Positions 3,473-18,926 of a stretch of 35,754 nt of DNA are shown here, in pieces. The position numbers were made by a program, and so were the translations under genes. The stretch's first letter is position 1, and each line of letters starts with the position of its first letter. The notes beneath the pieces were generated by a model. That model saw only the letters and a list, made by a program, of their open reading frames with translations, was not told the origin of the DNA and did no database searches. Source of the stretch: a virus. The DNA lies in the IMG/VR virus record IMGVR_UViG_3300037189_003849, positions 1 through 35,754 of that record; one strand, written 5' to 3'.

Positions 3473-4468
3473 TTAGTATGCGATTTTGCCGTGGGCTTGG
3501 GGATGCTTGACGCACAGGGTTCCAGCAACGTCAATGAAGCCGCGCTCGCCGCCACCTTGGTTCTCAAGGCGAGTAGCACCCATAGGAATCAGGGTGTTGA
3601 AGCCCAGATACTTAGGATTGAGGACGTAACCCACGTTGGTCGAACTAGTTGGCATACAGCTAGGGTTGCCGTTCACGATCTTAACAAGGCCGAAGTCAGA
3701 GTCATACAGATTCACCGAAAGGGTGATTTGCTTGCTCGTAGCGTCTTGGTTGACGTGGTAGGTAACACCAGCCGAAGCAGGGGTTGCACGGGTGAAGTTG
3801 CTGACAACCTGGCGAAGTGCCACGTTAGCAACAAGGGTCAGGCTGTTCATCTCACCGTTCTTGGCGAAGATGGAACCAATCATCGTGTTGAACGAGGACT
3901 CACTGAGCGTCGAAGCAATGATCGAACCAGATGGAGTGCGGTAAGCAGCGGGAACCGGGTTGGTTGCTTGGGCAGAGGACTGAATCCACTTGCCAAGGCA
4001 GCGCATTCCGTAGGGAGTGCCAGCACCGTTCTCAACCGTCATCTCGTTATCGGAGGCGATGGTGGCTTCGATGTCGCGCTTGATTTCACGCATGGACTTC
4101 GCTTCCGCTTGTGCCACGTTAGCAGGGCCGACACTGGTGACAGCTTGCTGAAGGTTGGACACAATGTAGTCACGGCGCATGAGTTGGATGTAGTTTCCAA
4201 GACGGGCGCGATCCGCGAACTTGTCGGAGAACGAGGTAACGTCGGAACCTTCGCTGATACCCGTTGTGGCGGGGGCGGCGAGGGAATCAACAGTCCACTC
4301 GGTGTAAGTGGCAGATGCTTTACCCTTGCCGCAGAGCGAAAGGATAGGAGTCTCTTCCGGTGCGAGGATGGAAAGCTCGTTGCTTAGATCCTCACGGTTG
4401 GAGACGGCGGAACCCTGACCCGCTTTTGCGGCTGGGGCTGATGGCTGATAAGTATTTGAGATAGGCAT
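3473..4468 (-). CDS. Major capsid protein, SU10/DUF5309 type (331 aa)
   Basis: 331 residues, the usual size for an HK97-fold capsid subunit of this family. The N-terminal part shows the DUF5309/SU10-like pattern: 'NREDLSNELSILAPEETPILSL', then 'TEWTVDSLA', an 'EGSDV' element, and 'NYIQLMRRDYIVSN' followed by an amphipathic helix 'AQAEAKSMREIKRDIEATI' (spine helix). The rest has beta-rich A-domain-like sequence. It follows the scaffold gene by 18 bases and precedes the decoration-like gene. The leader (CAACCAACTAAGAAA) lacks an SD although this should be the most abundant product. Long antisense frames exist over it but lack protein-like composition. Confidence 0.88.
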   Translation of the reverse strand: MPISNTYQPSAPAAKAGQGSAVSNREDLSNELSILAPEETPILSLCGKGKASATYTEWTVDSLAAPATTGISEGSDVTSFSDKFADRARLGNYIQLMRRDYIVSNLQQAVTSVGPANVAQAEAKSMREIKRDIEATIASDNEMTVENGAGTPYGMRCLGKWIQSSAQATNPVPAAYRTPSGSIIASTLSESSFNTMIGSIFAKNGEMNSLTLVANVALRQVVSNFTRATPASAGVTYHVNQDATSKQITLSVNLYDSDFGLVKIVNGNPSCMPTSSTNVGYVLNPKYLGFNTLIPMGATRLENQGGGERGFIDVAGTLCVKHPQAHGKIAY

Positions 4469-4486: not shown

Positions 4487-5497
4487 TTATTTGTATTTAG
4501 CGATTCTAGCAGCAACCCATTCTTCCGGACTCCCACTTTTTTCAAAGCGGCTGTATGCGTCCGTCCCCTTTTTCGTGGAGGGGGTCGAGGATTTCGCAGC
4601 TCCCGCACCAAATGGCGAAGATGATGGGCTGATTTTCAGCTTGTTCGCCACCGCAGGTTGCTTCTTGATTCTCGTTCCTCCATTGATGGAGTTAGCTGCA
4701 TGAGCCAGGATGTATTCGATTTGATAGCCAATTTCAGGAACTTGTTTGCGTAGCTTGTCGATAAGCGGGTCAGACATTAAATCCTTGAATTGTTTTCCGA
4801 TAGTCGTGGACTCATCCTTGATGTCGGGAACTTCTTCTTCTGCCGCTGCGATGTATTGACCTTTCAACTGTTCCATCTGGGCGATCTGCTGGAGATGCGC
4901 CTGTTGAGCGGGAATGTATTTCGTCAACGCCTCACGAGCGTTTCGGTTGGCTTTACGAATCTGCTGCTTGGTGAACTCGCGGTCTCCAACTAGGATTATG
5001 TCCTCAGAACGGTAATCTTCGTATTCCTCCAATAGCTCATCAGTTGAATCGAGGGTTTTCTCAAGTTCCTTGTATTTCGCCTTTAGGTCATCGAATGACT
5101 GTATTTCGCGGAATGGGTTTTGTTCTTGAGGGACTTCCTTGATTTCCGGTTGAGACTGAATCTTTTCCTCCAAGGCTTTCTTCTGAGCGGTTAGCTCGCC
5201 AATCCGTTGAAGGAGTCGGCTCTTACCCTTTTTGGCTAAAGATTGAATCTGCTCCGTGGTCAATGACAGTAGATCAATTTCGCTTTCCTCTTCCTCCTCT
5301 TCGGGTTCTTCCTCTGTTTCGGTTTCCTCTTCTTCGGCGGGAATCTCTTCCTCCTCAGTTTCGGGTTCTTCTTCTTCGGGTTGCTCCTCGGATTCAGGTT
5401 CTGGATTTTGTCTTGCCGTTCTCTGAGCTACAAGCTCTTCAAATGACAGGTTAGACACTGATTCGATAGCTTCAGCGGTAGCTTCTGGATTGCTCAT
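4487..5497 (-). CDS. Capsid scaffolding protein (336 aa)
   Basis: Immediately before the capsid gene, as scaffolds usually are. Residues about 33-75 are a nearly pure Glu/Pro/Thr tract (repeats of EEE, ETE, PEEEEE), followed by a long predicted coiled coil (about 75-240, many K/E/Q/L heptads: 'KKALEEKIQSQPEIKE', 'DDLKAKYKELEKTLD', 'AREALTKYIPAQQAHLQQIAQME'). The C-terminal part is basic and Ser-rich with a K-rich end, the usual capsid-binding helix position. It assembles with the capsid protein into the procapsid. The start MSNPEATAEAIE is 34-35 nt downstream of the predicted TSS. Confidence 0.85.
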   Translation of the reverse strand: MSNPEATAEAIESVSNLSFEELVAQRTARQNPEPESEEQPEEEEPETEEEEIPAEEEETETEEEPEEEEEESEIDLLSLTTEQIQSLAKKGKSRLLQRIGELTAQKKALEEKIQSQPEIKEVPQEQNPFREIQSFDDLKAKYKELEKTLDSTDELLEEYEDYRSEDIILVGDREFTKQQIRKANRNAREALTKYIPAQQAHLQQIAQMEQLKGQYIAAAEEEVPDIKDESTTIGKQFKDLMSDPLIDKLRKQVPEIGYQIEYILAHAANSINGGTRIKKQPAVANKLKISPSSSPFGAGAAKSSTPSTKKGTDAYSRFEKSGSPEEWVAARIAKYK

Positions 5498-5538
5498 ATT
5501 GGAAACGCCATTTACGCTCGGCGGTGCGACTTGAAAGA

Positions 5539-5567
5539 GCTTTATGCGAATTTATTGCAGTTGTCAA
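5539..5567 (-). promoter_or_regulatory. Sigma70-type promoter for the scaffold/capsid block
   Basis: On the minus strand: TTGACA (5567-5562), 17-bp spacer, TAAAGC (5544-5539). The -35 is a perfect consensus; the -10 matches TATAAT at 3 of 6. The predicted start near 5532 leaves a short leader before the scaffold ATG at 5497. Confidence 0.65.
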
Positions 5568-5586
5568 TAGGCGATGTAAATTCATT

Positions 5587-5627
5587 GAAGATTTTTCTTG
5601 CGCTGTCAGAAAAACATGGGTAGATTT
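5587..5627 (+). repeat. Diverged tandem repeat, copy 1
   Basis: Begins GAAGATTTTTCTTGCG and ends TAGATTT. It matches the copy at 5700-5740 at 32 of 41 positions. A terminator-like hairpin follows each copy on the plus strand. Confidence 0.7.
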
Positions 5628-5659
5628 CTGCTTGTCGGGAATCAATTCGACTTTCAGAG

Positions 5660-5695
5660 AAACGCTCCCCTTTCGCGAGGGGGGCGTTTTTATTT
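5660..5695 (+). terminator. Terminator-like hairpin, plus strand
   Basis: AAACGCTCCCC (5660-5670) pairs with the GGGGGGCGTTT arm at 5679-5689 (one G-T wobble) around an 8-nt loop, followed by TTTTATTTT. On the minus strand the T-tail is weak. There is no protein gene upstream on the plus strand, so it would end a short non-coding RNA. Confidence 0.65.
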
Positions 5696-5699
5696 TCAG

Positions 5700-5740
5700 G
5701 AAGATTTCTCTTGCGTTGGTGAAAAAACCTGCTTAGATTT
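5700..5740 (+). repeat. Diverged tandem repeat, copy 2
   Basis: Begins GAAGATTTCTCTTGCG and ends TAGATTT. In this copy CGTTGGTG and, just after it, CACCAACG form a perfect 8-bp stem enclosing the conserved AAAAAAC...TAGATTT part. Confidence 0.7.
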
Positions 5741-5805
5741 GCACCAACGAGAGGTAGGACTCATCGTTAGAGTTTTCTCCACGCCGCCGCTTGATCGCAT
5801 GGCTT

Positions 5806-5855
5806 AAAGGACTAGCACGGGTTTTCCTACCTCCTCGTGCTAGTCCTTTTCATTT
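5806..5855 (+). terminator. Strong terminator-like hairpin, plus strand
   Basis: AAAGGACTAGCACG (5806-5819) pairs perfectly over 14 bp with CGTGCTAGTCCTTT (5836-5849) around a 16-nt loop, followed on the plus strand by a T-rich tail (TTTTCATTT). No plus-strand protein gene precedes it. Confidence 0.7.
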
Positions 5856-6237
5856 AGGCTAGTTTCTCTTGGAACGAGTCAGCCAGGAGAACGGGCAAAG
5901 GGGTCGCAATCATGTGTTGTGATATTCAGAAGTGGACGCAATCCGTCTCTTAATGGATACAGCAGCACAAGGCACAAGACTTCATCACCATTAGGCTCGC
6001 GGCTAGCTCTGACTCCGATCTGTCATCTAGCATCCGTAACGGCTACAATCCGAAGCGGGGGGAAGAGCGTAAAACCGAATCAGGTCTCTGGAAGCAGGGG
6101 TTCTGCATGGTGAACCAAGGCACATAGGATTGCGGTAACGCAGCCCTAAGAGATCGGTTTGGCTTTATCCTCTCGGGGAGAATAATTTTGAGCGAAGCGA
6201 ACTGACAGAAAAGGGAAACTAACCCCGCAACAAACAC

Positions 6238-6260
6238 AAACAGAAGAACCGTAGAGGAAT
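6238..6260 (+). repeat. 23-bp direct repeat, copy 1
   Basis: Begins AAACAGAAGAACCGTAGAGG and runs on for three more bases (AAT). It is identical to 6411-6433 and lies 14 bases before the ATG of the 50-residue plus-strand gene. Confidence 0.95.
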
Positions 6261-6274
6261 AACCATTTAAAATT

Positions 6275-6427
6275 ATGAATGATTTAAGGCCACAAAAAGC
6301 AGGACACAAGCAACTTGGTAAAATGACAAAGAAAGAACTTCTTGATGAGATTAAACGATTAGATGAAGTTATTCAAATCACAGCAAGAAGGCTTGATGCG
6401 TTAAAGTGCAAAACAGAAGAACCGTAG
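6275..6427 (+). CDS. Small plus-strand gene within the island (50 aa)
   Basis: Encodes MNDLRPQKAGHKQLGKMTKK followed by a charged helix (ELLDEIKRLDEVIQITARRLDA in two parts) and ends KTEEP. The composition is that of a real soluble helical protein, and codon use is more A/T-rich than the flanking minus-strand genes. The first 23-bp repeat supplies an AGAGGAAT purine stretch upstream; the second encodes the last residues and stop. It is the only convincing coding frame on the plus strand in the left two thirds of the genome. Function unknown; it could be an inserted extra gene. Confidence 0.55.
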   Translation: MNDLRPQKAGHKQLGKMTKKELLDEIKRLDEVIQITARRLDALKCKTEEP

Positions 6428-6452
6428 AGGAATTGCTGCCCCTCTACGGTTC
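6406..6452 (-). terminator. Minus-strand terminator upstream of the capsid block
   Basis: GAACCGTAGAGG (6419-6430) pairs perfectly with CCTCTACGGTTC (6441-6452), 12 bp with a 10-nt loop. On the minus strand it is followed by TTCTGTTTTG. It lies about 65 bases after the stop of the 70-residue gene, ending the portal-side transcript. The left arm is part of the second 23-bp repeat. Confidence 0.65.
6411..6433 (+). repeat. 23-bp direct repeat, copy 2
   Basis: Exact second copy of 6238-6260, with a 173-bp period. It contains the stop codon of the 50-residue gene and one arm of the 6419-6452 hairpin. Confidence 0.95.
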
Positions 6453-6516
6453 CCTGAACACACAAACACGCCGAAAACGAAACGGCAAAGCAATAAAAGC
6501 AGAGCGTGTTGAAATG

Positions 6517-6729
6517 TCAACTTTCTTTTTTCAACAGAGATAGAAGTTCATCCAATGTCGAAACGCTGCCGACAATCTTCATTACCTCATTGGTTTCCGC
6601 ACACTGGCGAAGGTCTGCAAAGAATCTCTCGCGCTCGTCTTGGATGAACTGGATGATTGCTTTGAACTCGTCACGGTCAGATAAAGCGTCAACAGCTTGC
6701 TGAATGGTTGGTTTAGGTAGTGGTGTCAT
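6517..6729 (-). CDS. Hypothetical small helical protein (70 aa)
   Basis: Reads MTPLPKPTIQQAVDALSDRD and continues with helices rich in charged residues ('FIQDERERFFADLRQCAET') and an LLSLLKK end. Last gene before the minus-strand terminator and coupled to the HNH-motif gene (4-base overlap). No family recognised; possibly oligomeric through the helices. Confidence 0.75.
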   Translation of the reverse strand: MTPLPKPTIQQAVDALSDRDEFKAIIQFIQDERERFFADLRQCAETNEVMKIVGSVSTLDELLSLLKKES

Positions 6730-10190: not shown

Positions 10191-11789
10191 TTAATAGCCT
10201 CCACCTCCCTGAGTTGTAACCAAACTGACGGAATTGTCAACGTGATCTATTCCAGCGATTGCCGCATAACGCAGAACGTCAATAACATCCTTCCATGCTT
10301 CCTTTAATCCGCCATCTCCGGTGTATTCTGACAAACCTTGGATAATGTTCTCGCAGTCGGAGCTAACGTAAAAGTGCGGACGGTTGATAGAATCCAACGG
10401 CTTAGATGTATCCCATGCCATTTTCCCGATCAATGCTTGCAATCCATCGTCAATTTCCAACCCAGGAGCGGGGATGCAAACCATTCCGGCATCGTTCAAA
10501 TCCTCGATTATGGAGGATGAACCATCCTGAACCTGATACTTTGCCGCTCCTAATCGGGGGTCAATTAGCCTTTCAAAGATGTCCTCTTCACCCTCCATCT
10601 CTTCGATGAGGTCAACGTAGTCACGGATACCGTAGCCCTGCCCCTTCGCTCCCTCTCCCGGCATCCATTTGCCATTCCGCCATTCCGCCCAGTCGCCCAC
10701 GTCAACTCCAGGCCATTCGCGGTAAACCCACATCGTGCCAGTCTCATCGACCGCAATCCAGCACATAAACCAGTTCTTCGATCCTGCAGGGTCGATAACG
10801 TGATACCTTGTGACGTTTCGAGTCGGAATCTTCTCAGGCTCCACCACGTTGACCACCTTGTTGAACTTGGGAAACTTGGTGGCGTGTGACTTCATCGGCA
10901 CTCCGTAGGCACGAATCAGAATCTCTTCCCGTGTCCTACCTTTCAGCGTCTCCTTGATGCGCTCGTATCCACCGAAAGCATTGTCTTGCGAGTGGAAATA
11001 ATGCACGGACGCATTCAGCTTCTTGGATTTCTGGACGTACGGAACAAGCTCGCCATTCAGCAATTCCGCCTCCCTGCTTTCAATGGTTGTCGCGCCGTCC
11101 AGATACTCCTTGATAACCTCAGTCCACCCGTCGATAGGCGTGAACGTGACAAGCATCTTGGAATTACGGGTAGCCAGACGGAAACGGAGAGTGTTTATCA
11201 GTTCGGGGCCGAGAAGGTATTCGTCCAGCCATACGCCGATATTGTGCCAGACAGGATTCCTAGAACCAAGCTCCGCGCCTTCCAGAATCGTAGGGTTGTT
11301 CTGATACTGAGAATACGTCTTGAAAATAATCTGTGAACCGTTCGGGAGGATTAGCGACGAATCAGTGAATCCTGTTTTCTTCTTGTAGGAAATGTAGGCG
11401 TTTGCGCTAGTAAACTTGGTTTTTAGATACTCTGGGAGCCAAGCCCACACCGCGCTTTGTTGCTGGCGGATGGATACCTCGGACGTTTGGGCGAAGCAGA
11501 ATATCTCGGAGTTGGGATTCTCCACAGCAGCACGGACAACGGAGAATGCACCCCACTGGGTTTTCCCACTGCGATTTCCGCCTAGTGCTAGGATTTCATT
11601 GACTTCGTGTAGTTGCTCCTCTGCTTTCGTCCAGTGGGGCAGTCGGAAACCATACTCATACGGGTCTTTCTCCGCATTCTCAATGGCTTCGTGGTAAATG
11701 CGATGGATGGACAACACCTCTTCTGGTGTCATCTCGATTAGCTCCTCATCCGTTGGCGGGGTGAGGATTTGATGCGGTCTCCAAATCAT
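10191..11789 (-). CDS. terL: Terminase large subunit (532 aa)
   Basis: The ATP-driven DNA packaging motor and nuclease. Walker A at residues 70-77 (GGNRSGKT), Walker B at about 184-190 ('IGVWLDE', D189/E190), a coupling-type 'LVTFTP' at 213-218, and an RNase-H-like nuclease domain with acidic residues D333 ('HVIDPAG'), D410 ('RLIDPR') and D501/D504 ('DVIDVLRYA'). The full normal length is present. It overlaps the small subunit by 4 bases (ATGA). Confidence 0.93.
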   Translation of the reverse strand: MIWRPHQILTPPTDEELIEMTPEEVLSIHRIYHEAIENAEKDPYEYGFRLPHWTKAEEQLHEVNEILALGGNRSGKTQWGAFSVVRAAVENPNSEIFCFAQTSEVSIRQQQSAVWAWLPEYLKTKFTSANAYISYKKKTGFTDSSLILPNGSQIIFKTYSQYQNNPTILEGAELGSRNPVWHNIGVWLDEYLLGPELINTLRFRLATRNSKMLVTFTPIDGWTEVIKEYLDGATTIESREAELLNGELVPYVQKSKKLNASVHYFHSQDNAFGGYERIKETLKGRTREEILIRAYGVPMKSHATKFPKFNKVVNVVEPEKIPTRNVTRYHVIDPAGSKNWFMCWIAVDETGTMWVYREWPGVDVGDWAEWRNGKWMPGEGAKGQGYGIRDYVDLIEEMEGEEDIFERLIDPRLGAAKYQVQDGSSSIIEDLNDAGMVCIPAPGLEIDDGLQALIGKMAWDTSKPLDSINRPHFYVSSDCENIIQGLSEYTGDGGLKEAWKDVIDVLRYAAIAGIDHVDNSVSLVTTQGGGGY

Positions 11790-16510: not shown

Positions 16511-18115
16511 TTATCGTAAACCTCTAAGTCTATCTGTTGCGCTTTGTGGTTTCTCAGGAGTAGATTCACCTCCTGGCGTATCAGAAAGAAGATCATCAGC
16601 GTTCCTAATCGCCCTAACTTCTTTATCAATATCAAATGCATTTCTACCTTCGCTTAAACCTTCTGATATGACCTTTTCAATCTTCTCTGCTTTTTTAATT
16701 GCTTTAAGCATAAACTCACCTATTTTCTTGTTACCTTCTACAGTATTTCCAAGGTTAGGAGCCAGAACAGTAGTGAAATATGTCATTTCCCTATCGGAGA
16801 TGGCACCCTTTGTAAGGTTGATGAATCCCATAGCAACATCACCAGCTACGGATTTAAATGTCTCAGAATCAGAAACATCTCTACCAAACGCTTTATTGAA
16901 TTGCATAATGGCACCTTGAGCAAAACCTGTCTTGACTCCCTCATCAAGAAGATTAACCATTTTCGTTATACTGTCTTTATTTTGAGAAGCACCTTCAAGT
17001 TGTTTTTTTGTTTCAAACAACATTTTATCCATCTCCTTTGCTCGTCCTTCTTGACTAGACTGGGCAGTGTTCACTTCTACCATTGGTTTATTACCAAAGG
17101 TTGATTCAGTTACACGAAATTTTCCTCCACCTAATGGGACAGCGTTAATCTTTACCCCTTTATTTGCTAGTTCTTCTACTTCCGCTAGGGTCATTTCCGT
17201 TCCTTCTGGCTCTTCTGCTTTAACTTCAACAGGAGTAGCACCAGGAGGTATCATTCCCCCGCCTGCTTGACCAGCAGGTATCTCATCAACTACTGGAACC
17301 TGAGTAGTGGTTGGCGTTCCCATTGGCATTGGGGACACGTTAGAGACATCGCTTTGTCCACCAGTTAGCTCTGCGGCAGCAGCAATAGCGGCAGGGTCAA
17401 TCCTAGGAGGAAGAACCATTGCTTCTGAAATACCACCGTAATCTGGGAAAGTTCCATCCCCAGGTATTGCTGTGCCTTCTGCTGTTGGCATGGAAAGATT
17501 TAATCCAGTATCAATAGCCGTAGAGGCTTGCGAATCTACGCCATAAACAGGAGTACCATCCTCATAAAGCGCATCGGAAGGGTTGTTGGGATCAACATAA
17601 ATGTCATACTTTAGAGTTTTGCCATTAAAAACTCCAGTTTTTTCTACGCGTTTACGATTAACTGTTGGCATTGAAGGTGCATTTCTTGCAAGAGCTTCTG
17701 CCTCACGAATACCAAGCTCCCTTTCTTTGAATCCAACATCTTGACGGTTGCGAACCTCATTGATACCAAGTTCGAGAATGTCAGAAATAGCGTCTGCTTC
17801 CGCAGTCCTTTGACTGAGTGGCAATTCCTTGTCATTCAAGATATTCAAAGAACCTTGAATTGTCGGCTGGAGTCCAGGAATCAAATCACCAATGGCTTTA
17901 GCTACGCTTAAAGACTTCTGAACCTTCTTTTCATCTTCGGCTTGCTTCTTGAAATAATCTCCAACTTCACTAATCGCACCGCCGATACTCGCCCCAAGGT
18001 TAGCAACCCCCTGTGCTTGCGTAGCAGCAGCATTAGCCATCCCGCTGTAATCCAGCTTGAATGACTCAGGGTTGATCCCCGAACCTAGCATCTGTCCTCT
18101 TCCGTAAGTCGCCAT
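16511..18115 (-). CDS. Internal virion / injection-type protein (534 aa)
   Basis: Begins MATYGRGQMLGSGINPESFK and has an Ala/Gly/Gln-rich amphipathic start (about 25-70: 'NAAATQAQGVANLGASIGGAI'), a helical part, a Pro/Gly-rich low-complexity middle (about 215-300), then a helical C-terminal domain. Such N-terminal sequences are frequent in internal virion proteins of podoviruses. It precedes the 1390-residue protein by 5 bases, so the two are probably made together as core components. No catalytic motif seen. Confidence 0.6.
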   Translation of the reverse strand: MATYGRGQMLGSGINPESFKLDYSGMANAAATQAQGVANLGASIGGAISEVGDYFKKQAEDEKKVQKSLSVAKAIGDLIPGLQPTIQGSLNILNDKELPLSQRTAEADAISDILELGINEVRNRQDVGFKERELGIREAEALARNAPSMPTVNRKRVEKTGVFNGKTLKYDIYVDPNNPSDALYEDGTPVYGVDSQASTAIDTGLNLSMPTAEGTAIPGDGTFPDYGGISEAMVLPPRIDPAAIAAAAELTGGQSDVSNVSPMPMGTPTTTQVPVVDEIPAGQAGGGMIPPGATPVEVKAEEPEGTEMTLAEVEELANKGVKINAVPLGGGKFRVTESTFGNKPMVEVNTAQSSQEGRAKEMDKMLFETKKQLEGASQNKDSITKMVNLLDEGVKTGFAQGAIMQFNKAFGRDVSDSETFKSVAGDVAMGFINLTKGAISDREMTYFTTVLAPNLGNTVEGNKKIGEFMLKAIKKAEKIEKVISEGLSEGRNAFDIDKEVRAIRNADDLLSDTPGGESTPEKPQSATDRLRGLR

Positions 18116-18119
18116 ATTG

Positions 18120-18926
18120 TTAGTCTTTCATGTATGATGGGATTGATTGGTCTGCCCAAACCACACGCTTTGAAATGTTTTCTATTGTGCAGTTAAACTT
18201 TGGGCAATGCACAAACTTTGGTGCTGATTCTCTTCGATCAATGCAAGCGGTGCAAGCATGGACGTAATCACAATTTTGCGACCTGTCTGCTTTCTCACCC
18301 CACTTACCATCTACCTTTTCGTATCTGCTGGTTTGAATTGGAACATTGTTGGATTCACAATACTCGAAAACATCATCATGTGTCCAGCCTTTGATTGGGT
18401 AGAAGGCATTGCATTGATGTGGGTTAACCCTTACATCAACGCGAATACCAGCATCTCCACCGTAAATAGGATCAGAGTCGCATAGCTTATGCCCTACAAG
18501 CATCCCATCCCATCCAGCAATAATACCTTGGTTCTTGGGGCGATTGTAAATATCCATAGCGCACACCCAAGGTTGCCCATCCTCCATTGGGGTAATCCCC
18601 GTTGGGCAGGTCATATCCGTGTTGTCAAAGATGTAGCGATTCTGCACCTCAAACTCATCGCCTGTTTGCTGGAAGTTGGATATTGCAGGATGCCAAGTGT
18701 AAACTTCAAGCCCCCAATCCTCGATGATTCGATTCTGGAAAGCGTATTTGTGGGGTTGCCATTGCTCACGATAGAACACGATTGGAACTTTAGCTCCTAC
18801 TTTGTTAACCACAAGATGAAGCAACGCCATGCTATCCTTGCCTCCGCTCCATGCCAATACTGGCTTCTTAGAGTGAGTCAAGCAAAGCTCGATATTGCTT
18901 ATCGCGTCTTGTATTTTGGTTCTCAT
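18120..18926 (-). CDS. PAPS reductase-like ATP-pyrophosphatase with C-terminal Cys cluster (268 aa)
   Basis: Phosphoadenosine-phosphosulfate reductase family (adenine nucleotide alpha-hydrolase fold). The PP-loop is at residues 26-32 (W-SGGKDS), followed by a 'HLVVNKVG' helix, 'IVFYREQW', and an 'HDDVFEYC' segment typical of the family. Near the C-terminus lie C219, C225, C228, C241 and C246 (CTAC...CPKFNC), which could hold a metal or Fe-S cluster as in APS reductase or DndC. It may reduce sulphate esters or activate sulphur for nucleic-acid modification; the substrate is unknown. Its placement in the middle of virion genes, tightly packed on both sides, is odd for an enzyme. Confidence 0.85.
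   Translation of the reverse strand: MRTKIQDAISNIELCLTHSKKPVLAWSGGKDSMALLHLVVNKVGAKVPIVFYREQWQPHKYAFQNRIIEDWGLEVYTWHPAISNFQQTGDEFEVQNRYIFDNTDMTCPTGITPMEDGQPWVCAMDIYNRPKNQGIIAGWDGMLVGHKLCDSDPIYGGDAGIRVDVRVNPHQCNAFYPIKGWTHDDVFEYCESNNVPIQTSRYEKVDGKWGEKADRSQNCDYVHACTACIDRRESAPKFVHCPKFNCTIENISKRVVWADQSIPSYMKD

Follow-up and report, generated by a model that had tools for sequence, protein, structure and literature searches.

The window analyzed here, a virus contig of IMG/VR, comprises 35,754 bases, and all positions refer to it. Its late genes occupy the minus strand and include an SU10-type major capsid protein (3473-4468), a scaffold-like open reading frame (ORF; 4487-5497), a terminase (10191-11789), and tail proteins; a phosphoadenosine phosphosulfate reductase-like gene (18120-18926, minus strand) also lies within the late region. 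Genes for replication and recombination (Erf, exonuclease VIII, a DnaC-like loader, and a RuvC-like resolvase) are on the plus strand at 27-33 kb. The subject of this analysis is a plus-strand cassette in the 1,019-nt gap that runs from a small minus-strand ORF (6517-6729) to the scaffold-like ORF. At one side of the gap is the TTGACA -35 element of the late (scaffold/capsid) promoter (5562-5567, minus strand), which faces away from the cassette, and at the far end of the insertion site is the terminator of the upstream minus-strand genes (6417-6454). A 50-amino-acid ORF (6275-6427, plus strand), same-strand cargo 3' of the RNA described below, is 96% identical in one relative (L009) and 66% identical in another (L042), where it is interrupted by a stop. 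A perfect 23-nt direct repeat, AAACAGAAGAACCGTAGAGGAAT (6238-6260 and 6411-6433), flanks the segment with this ORF, as if the segment had been inserted or duplicated in; the repeat is also the 5' arm of the minus-strand terminator. ARAGORN detected no tRNA or tmRNA in the window or in 24 relatives.

A search with the capsid protein returned 80 loci, 76 of which have a usable gap at this position, giving 77 spacers with that of the window. Gap lengths are bimodal: 33 of the 77 are 199 to 291 nt long and are termed empty, and the rest range from 354 nt (a truncated contig) to 2,259 nt. When the short gaps are aligned, only the late-promoter TTGACA (invariant, as TGTCAA on the plus strand) and the terminator of the upstream genes are conserved, indicating that in long gaps an insertion separates those two signals. 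In occupied spacers, the cargo is on the cassette strand. With 33 of 77 related spacers empty, the comparison shows the cassette to be accessory and dispensable within this lineage. Neither near nor distant DNA matches in named phages were useful; the closest named phage, C75C1, has a capsid protein 53% identical to that of the window and only 55 nt between two genes adjoining its capsid gene, which leaves no room for a cassette. Querying bacterial genomes with the capsid protein yielded no relative. The hypervariable gap also codes for HNH-type proteins, on the plus strand directly 3' of the RNA core in L071 (spacer positions 577-1212) and on the minus strand in L085 (144-614).

The original prediction described two head-to-tail units as a duplicated small-RNA family, and every sequence feature that it listed (unit starts, repeat, hairpins, inverted repeat, and promoter-like match) is present. 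However, the repeated unit start, GAAGATTT(T/C)TCTTGCG...TAGATTT, is by its anatomy a duplicated plus-strand sigma70-like promoter rather than a small-RNA 5' end. The direct repeat (5570-5627 and 5683-5740; 58 nt, 71% match) ends directly after the -10 element TAGATT(T), and the best ungapped repeat within 5498-6240 scores 24, whereas none of 60 dinucleotide shuffles scores above 13. The bodies that follow 5627 and 5740 share nothing, such that the repeat is confined to the promoter and the two units do not form a family of duplicated transcripts. Promoter P1 (5598-5626) consists of TTGCGC (5598-5603), a 17-nt spacer, and TAGATT (5621-5626); P2 (5700-5739) has an A/T-rich upstream part followed by TTGCGT (5711-5716), 17 nt, and TAGATT (5734-5739). 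Scored with a matrix built from ten relatives, P2 is the best site in the window (20.1) and P1 is tied for second best (19.0), placing both among the top three sites of the whole window. The remaining one of these three (TTGCGC-18-TAGATT, 16537-16566, plus strand) lies antisense within a coding ORF (16511-18115).

Among 42 distinct relatives, the -35 element is of the TTG type, the spacer is 17 nt, and the distance from the -10 element to a conserved 5' hairpin is constant. This fixed distance predicts starts at about 5633 and 5746, the latter being the first base of the conserved hairpin in unit 2. The -10 hexamers in these relatives vary (e.g., TAGATT, TATTTT, ATTATT, and TAAATT), with T at position -7 in 42 of 42, and the -35 element of distant relatives is TTGACA or TTGACG. 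Hexamers with a 16- to 18-nt spacing, located at a constant distance from the predicted start, are the arrangement of a sigma70-type promoter; a strict consensus scan omits the cassette promoter because its -35 element is only TTG-plus. The promoter previously placed before unit 1 (TTGCAG-16-TAAATT, 5555-5582) does occur, but it matches weakly, and both units have better promoters of their own. Similarly, the 8-bp stem assigned to unit 2 exists as an inverted repeat (CGTTGGTG/CACCAACG, 5714-5721/5742-5749) but, with the start predicted at 5746, it straddles the promoter, and relatives such as L008 and L071 lack it.

Unit 1 could encode a short RNA of about 60 nt with a strong terminator. Its predicted transcript (5634-5692) contains a small hairpin (5634-5651) and a 15-bp terminator hairpin (5658-5691) with a T tail, and the unit 1 body (5634-5695) has a folding z score of -5.13. 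Both of the T-tailed hairpins foreseen in the region, at 5658-5691 and 5806-5849, are present, and the unit bodies that contain them fold beyond shuffles (z = -5.1 and -4.25). Conservation of unit 1 is thin: its terminator-arm sequence has an exact match in only one other viral contig (L133/L007), where the -10 element is TAGCCT. A covariance-model match of unit 1 (5593-5698) to the DUF3800-I RNA (RF02969; 28.7 bits and E = 0.046, against a gathering score of 44.2) spans the promoter, rests on the terminator, and was judged to be due to chance.

Unit 2 begins with a leader of about 110 nt (5746-5855) that is predicted to form two hairpins followed by a U-rich tract; the z score of the unit 2 body (5746-5857) is -4.25. 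Hairpin 1 (5746-5768; AACG.GAG / CTC..CGTT, loop GTAGGA at 5754-5759) is supported by conservation and covariation. Hairpin 2 and its U-rich tract (5806-5855) are terminator-like, with a 16-bp stem (5806-5821/5834-5849) that is paired in 99.7% of alignment cells and has double changes at 9 of 14 counted pairs. In types A to D of the cassette (see below), a stable leader hairpin is directly followed by a U-rich tail, which is kept despite sequence drift. The hairpin 2 loop contains TCCTACCTC (5825-5833), the complement of the strand GAGGTAGGA (5751-5759) of hairpin 1, suggesting a kissing or pseudoknot interaction. This loop-loop complementarity spans 8 to 10 nt in 30 alleles, and the longest perfect match averages 8.3 nt versus 5.8 nt for permuted partners (maximum of 6.5; 0 of 500 as high), a count made with an automatic hairpin finder for which 2 of the 30 alleles are clear misses. 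The pairing is retained by divergent alleles (GAAGTAGAG/CTCTACTTC, CGACCGAAA/TTTCGGTCG, GAGTTGGA/TCCAACTC, and GACGGGGG/CCCCCGTC), and three more loci with diverged leaders have the same arrangement, with compensating changes in two of them (GGTTGTAGC/GCTACAACC and GGTAGTATC/GATACTACC). In the L172 leader, hairpins 1 and 2 come from different alleles and their complementarity is broken at two positions, such that this leader is likely a recombinant. In types A, C, and D, the 3' arm of hairpin 2 has a further potential partner in a third strand located 3' of the U tract, with weaker support (6.45 versus at most 6.26 for permuted partners).

Unit 2 had been taken to end at 5855, but in 13 of the 77 spacers, and in further contigs found by pattern, the leader runs straight on into a multihelix structured core of about 350 nt (type A, 5856-6207; z = -2.98 on 5856-6236). 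What appeared to be a third unit start, TTTCTCTTG at about 5863-5871, is indeed present but forms the 5' arm of a helix within this large RNA (5858-5872/5883-5896; 13 pairs, 4 with double changes). The most conserved domain (6059-6172) is composed of helices 6059-6078/6154-6172 and their inner hairpins, and an insertion of about 65 nt (5909-5973), inside a core helix, is peculiar to this phage and aligns with a gap in all other type A sequences. The window showed no clear plus-strand terminator 3' of the core.

The predicted structure of leader and core, 107 pairs over 27 type A sequences (26 distinct), is paired in 96.6% of cells. Covariation, which had been proposed as a check on the RNA, is evident: compensatory changes occur at 36 of the 107 pairs, compared to 20.9 ± 2.0 in shuffled alignments (0 of 500 as high), which leave relatedness in, and to 5 to 9 pairs in slid controls, which remove it. 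The number of further pair types does not exceed that in shuffles (192 of 500), and because the type A sequences fall into two main groups, there are fewer independent events than cells. Folding of the alignment is more favorable on the plus strand (-100) than on the minus strand (-66.5), and one core hairpin loop is GUAA, GCAA, or GAAA when read on the plus strand. A conserved protein frame, named at the outset as grounds for rejecting a noncoding RNA, is absent: each of the six core frames contains 1 to 10 stops in every relative, and indels break the frame. These features lead us to infer that the core acts as an RNA rather than as a protein. The original prediction thus stands as to plus-strand noncoding RNAs beside the capsid operon, with nearby coding on the minus strand, but not as to a duplicated small-RNA family, the end of unit 2, or a third start.

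The type A sequences detected with two independent DNA patterns are all, wherever their flanks are visible, at the same site in the same phage lineage. The core was not found elsewhere in 19 empty-gap records, several of near genome length; there was no positive control among those records, and the same query region was matched in relatives by other tools. In bacterial genomes, the core pattern returned 7 chance 19-mers without the RNA, and an exact 16-mer of the unit start occurs in 65 viral contigs, nearly all by chance and only a few belonging to the cassette.

The same leader precedes other cargo. Searching with its covariance model gave single-copy matches in types A to D (E ≤ 1e-12) and none that is convincing in empty gaps. 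The model of the core A domain matches type A only, with no cross match to type B or C, although DNA alignment shows that cores A and B share about 90 nt at their 3' ends. Type B (6 sequences) and type C (15 sequences) each have a conserved core that folds in its own way, with modest covariation (5 and 9 pairs, respectively). In type D, plus-strand ORFs begin within about 30 nt after the leader, and small ORFs, one coding for an HNH-type protein, also occur 3' of RNA cores. Compared across relatives, then, what follows this one leader is either ORFs (D) or one of at least three RNA cores (A, B, and C) that are unrelated to each other. The type B core (L007, L012, L019, L027, and L029) contains GGGTTCAATCCC, which resembles a tRNA T-arm loop; ARAGORN calls no tRNA there.

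The reading that we favor, by a modest degree, is that of an accessory, promoter-driven cassette of structured RNA with an attenuator-like leader, situated between the upstream minus-strand terminator and the scaffold/capsid promoter and on the opposite strand to both. A host-type RNA polymerase would start at P2 (5711-5739), with the RNA beginning, judging from conservation, near 5746. Its first 110 nt or so would fold into the two hairpins with their loops paired, the second hairpin and U-rich tract resembling an intrinsic terminator. Most transcripts might stop near 5855, the leader serving as an attenuator, and some would read past this point with the help of the loop-loop pairing or of a phage factor, producing the structured core (in type A, to about 6207) and then the small ORFs. 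Read-through must be supposed, since a terminator in the leader would halt transcription before the core. P1, as a duplicate of P2, would drive the unrelated, terminated RNA of about 60 nt. A U-tailed leader placed before RNAs as well as ORFs is probably best explained by cis control of transcription, in a switch to which the loop contact contributes. How that contact would influence termination is less evident, given that the terminator stem is undisturbed by the loop pairing. From general knowledge, intrinsic-terminator attenuators and leader riboregulators likewise combine a promoter, a leader of about 110 nt, a U-tailed hairpin, alternative pairing partners, and cargo behind. They differ from the cassette in that its partner strand pairs with the loop of the terminator and not with the stem, and in that much of its cargo is structured RNA.

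It is possible, if rather doubtful, that the leader hairpins are instead the 5' domain of one continuous large RNA, in which the loop pairing is architectural, the U tract is a linker, and nothing is attenuated. The core does follow directly after the U tract, with no other promoter between, and the strong covariation of the loops is like that of tertiary kissing contacts. Against this, type D leaders stand immediately before protein ORFs, and the other types place the leader ahead of three unrelated cores. Moreover, the sequence 3' of the stem has drifted yet remained U-rich, which is what a terminator would show.

Antitermination offers a further precedent. The put RNA of phage HK022 brings about antitermination that is sequence independent and requires RNA only. 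By analogy, a folded nascent leader could bind RNA polymerase and cause downstream terminators to be ignored, which we regard as unlikely. Like putL, the cassette has two hairpins directly at the transcript start (here predicted, from about +1, and supported by covariation), and put is proposed to act in cis on transcription (PMC9378689); such a mechanism would also accommodate any kind of cargo. Unlike put RNA, which is about 70 nt and has no U-tailed terminator, the cassette leader is longer, its loops pair with one another, and its second hairpin is itself terminator-like and followed by a U tract (PMC9378689). The two were compared by description only, and no sequence relation was seen.

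That the region holds two independent, terminated small RNAs (5634-5692 and 5746-5855), with the core at 5856-6207 a separate RNA from another promoter, seems quite improbable. In its favor, the folding of the two T-tailed hairpins is well beyond that of shuffles and a separate promoter precedes each unit, but leader and core are linked without a gap in type A sequences, no conserved promoter pattern was noticed from 5740 to 5900, and unit 1 recurs in one other contig only. Least credible, to the point of being negligible, is that the conservation reflects an unrecognized ORF or DNA element or is spurious, for although plus-strand ORFs of 60 to 70 amino acids can be read through parts of the block in the window, all six core frames contain stops in every relative, indels break the frame, and the pairs change in a compensatory manner.

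GOLLD and ROOL assemble into homo-oligomeric cages. They are large ornate RNAs of phages and prophages, several hundred nucleotides in length and of no known function (PMC12286853). The cassette resembles them in being phage-borne, several hundred nucleotides long, highly structured, with covarying kissing loops, and dispensable in at least one case, and GOLLD likewise joins a conserved to a variable part (PMC12286853). It differs in that its common part, which carries the promoter, the leader, and the U tract, is located 5'; in that its cores are shorter and can replace one another; and in that tRNAs, islands of which often lie near GOLLD and ROOL, are lacking in the window and in 24 relatives. 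Neither the window nor 12 relatives reached the gathering score of any Rfam 15 covariance model, and GOLLD, ROOL, OLE, and HEARO were not among the matches to E ≤ 5 (5480-6540) or E ≤ 2 (types B and C). Types A, B, and C are therefore apparently RNA families unlisted in Rfam. In the open-access PubMed Central literature searched, GOLLD and ROOL came closest in kind, and interchangeable large RNA cores behind one leader were not described, which is weak evidence of absence. A packaging RNA similar to the phi29 pRNA was also considered and was rejected because 33 of the 77 relatives lack the cassette.

To our knowledge, only a few large structured RNAs have been described from phages, and the best studied among them all lack a known function. 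To these, a single phage lineage contributes at this site at least three RNA families that are apparently unlisted, with enough relatives for covariation analysis. The site would be a defined system in which to study the role of phage-borne ornate RNAs and the means by which they are switched on; naturally empty relatives serve as controls, and the common leader is testable by itself. Being dispensable, equipped with a promoter of its own, and located at an insulated site, the cassette might have a moron-type accessory function, although this is a guess. We tentatively suggest, with a little less than even confidence, that one site serves this lineage as an RNA expression slot, in which a constant promoter and kissing-loop attenuator leader are placed before either small genes or interchangeable, unrelated large RNAs of at least three families absent from Rfam, the cargo being swapped between phages like morons. 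The accessory cargo of phages can, on this evidence, be RNA that is exchanged behind a constant leader.
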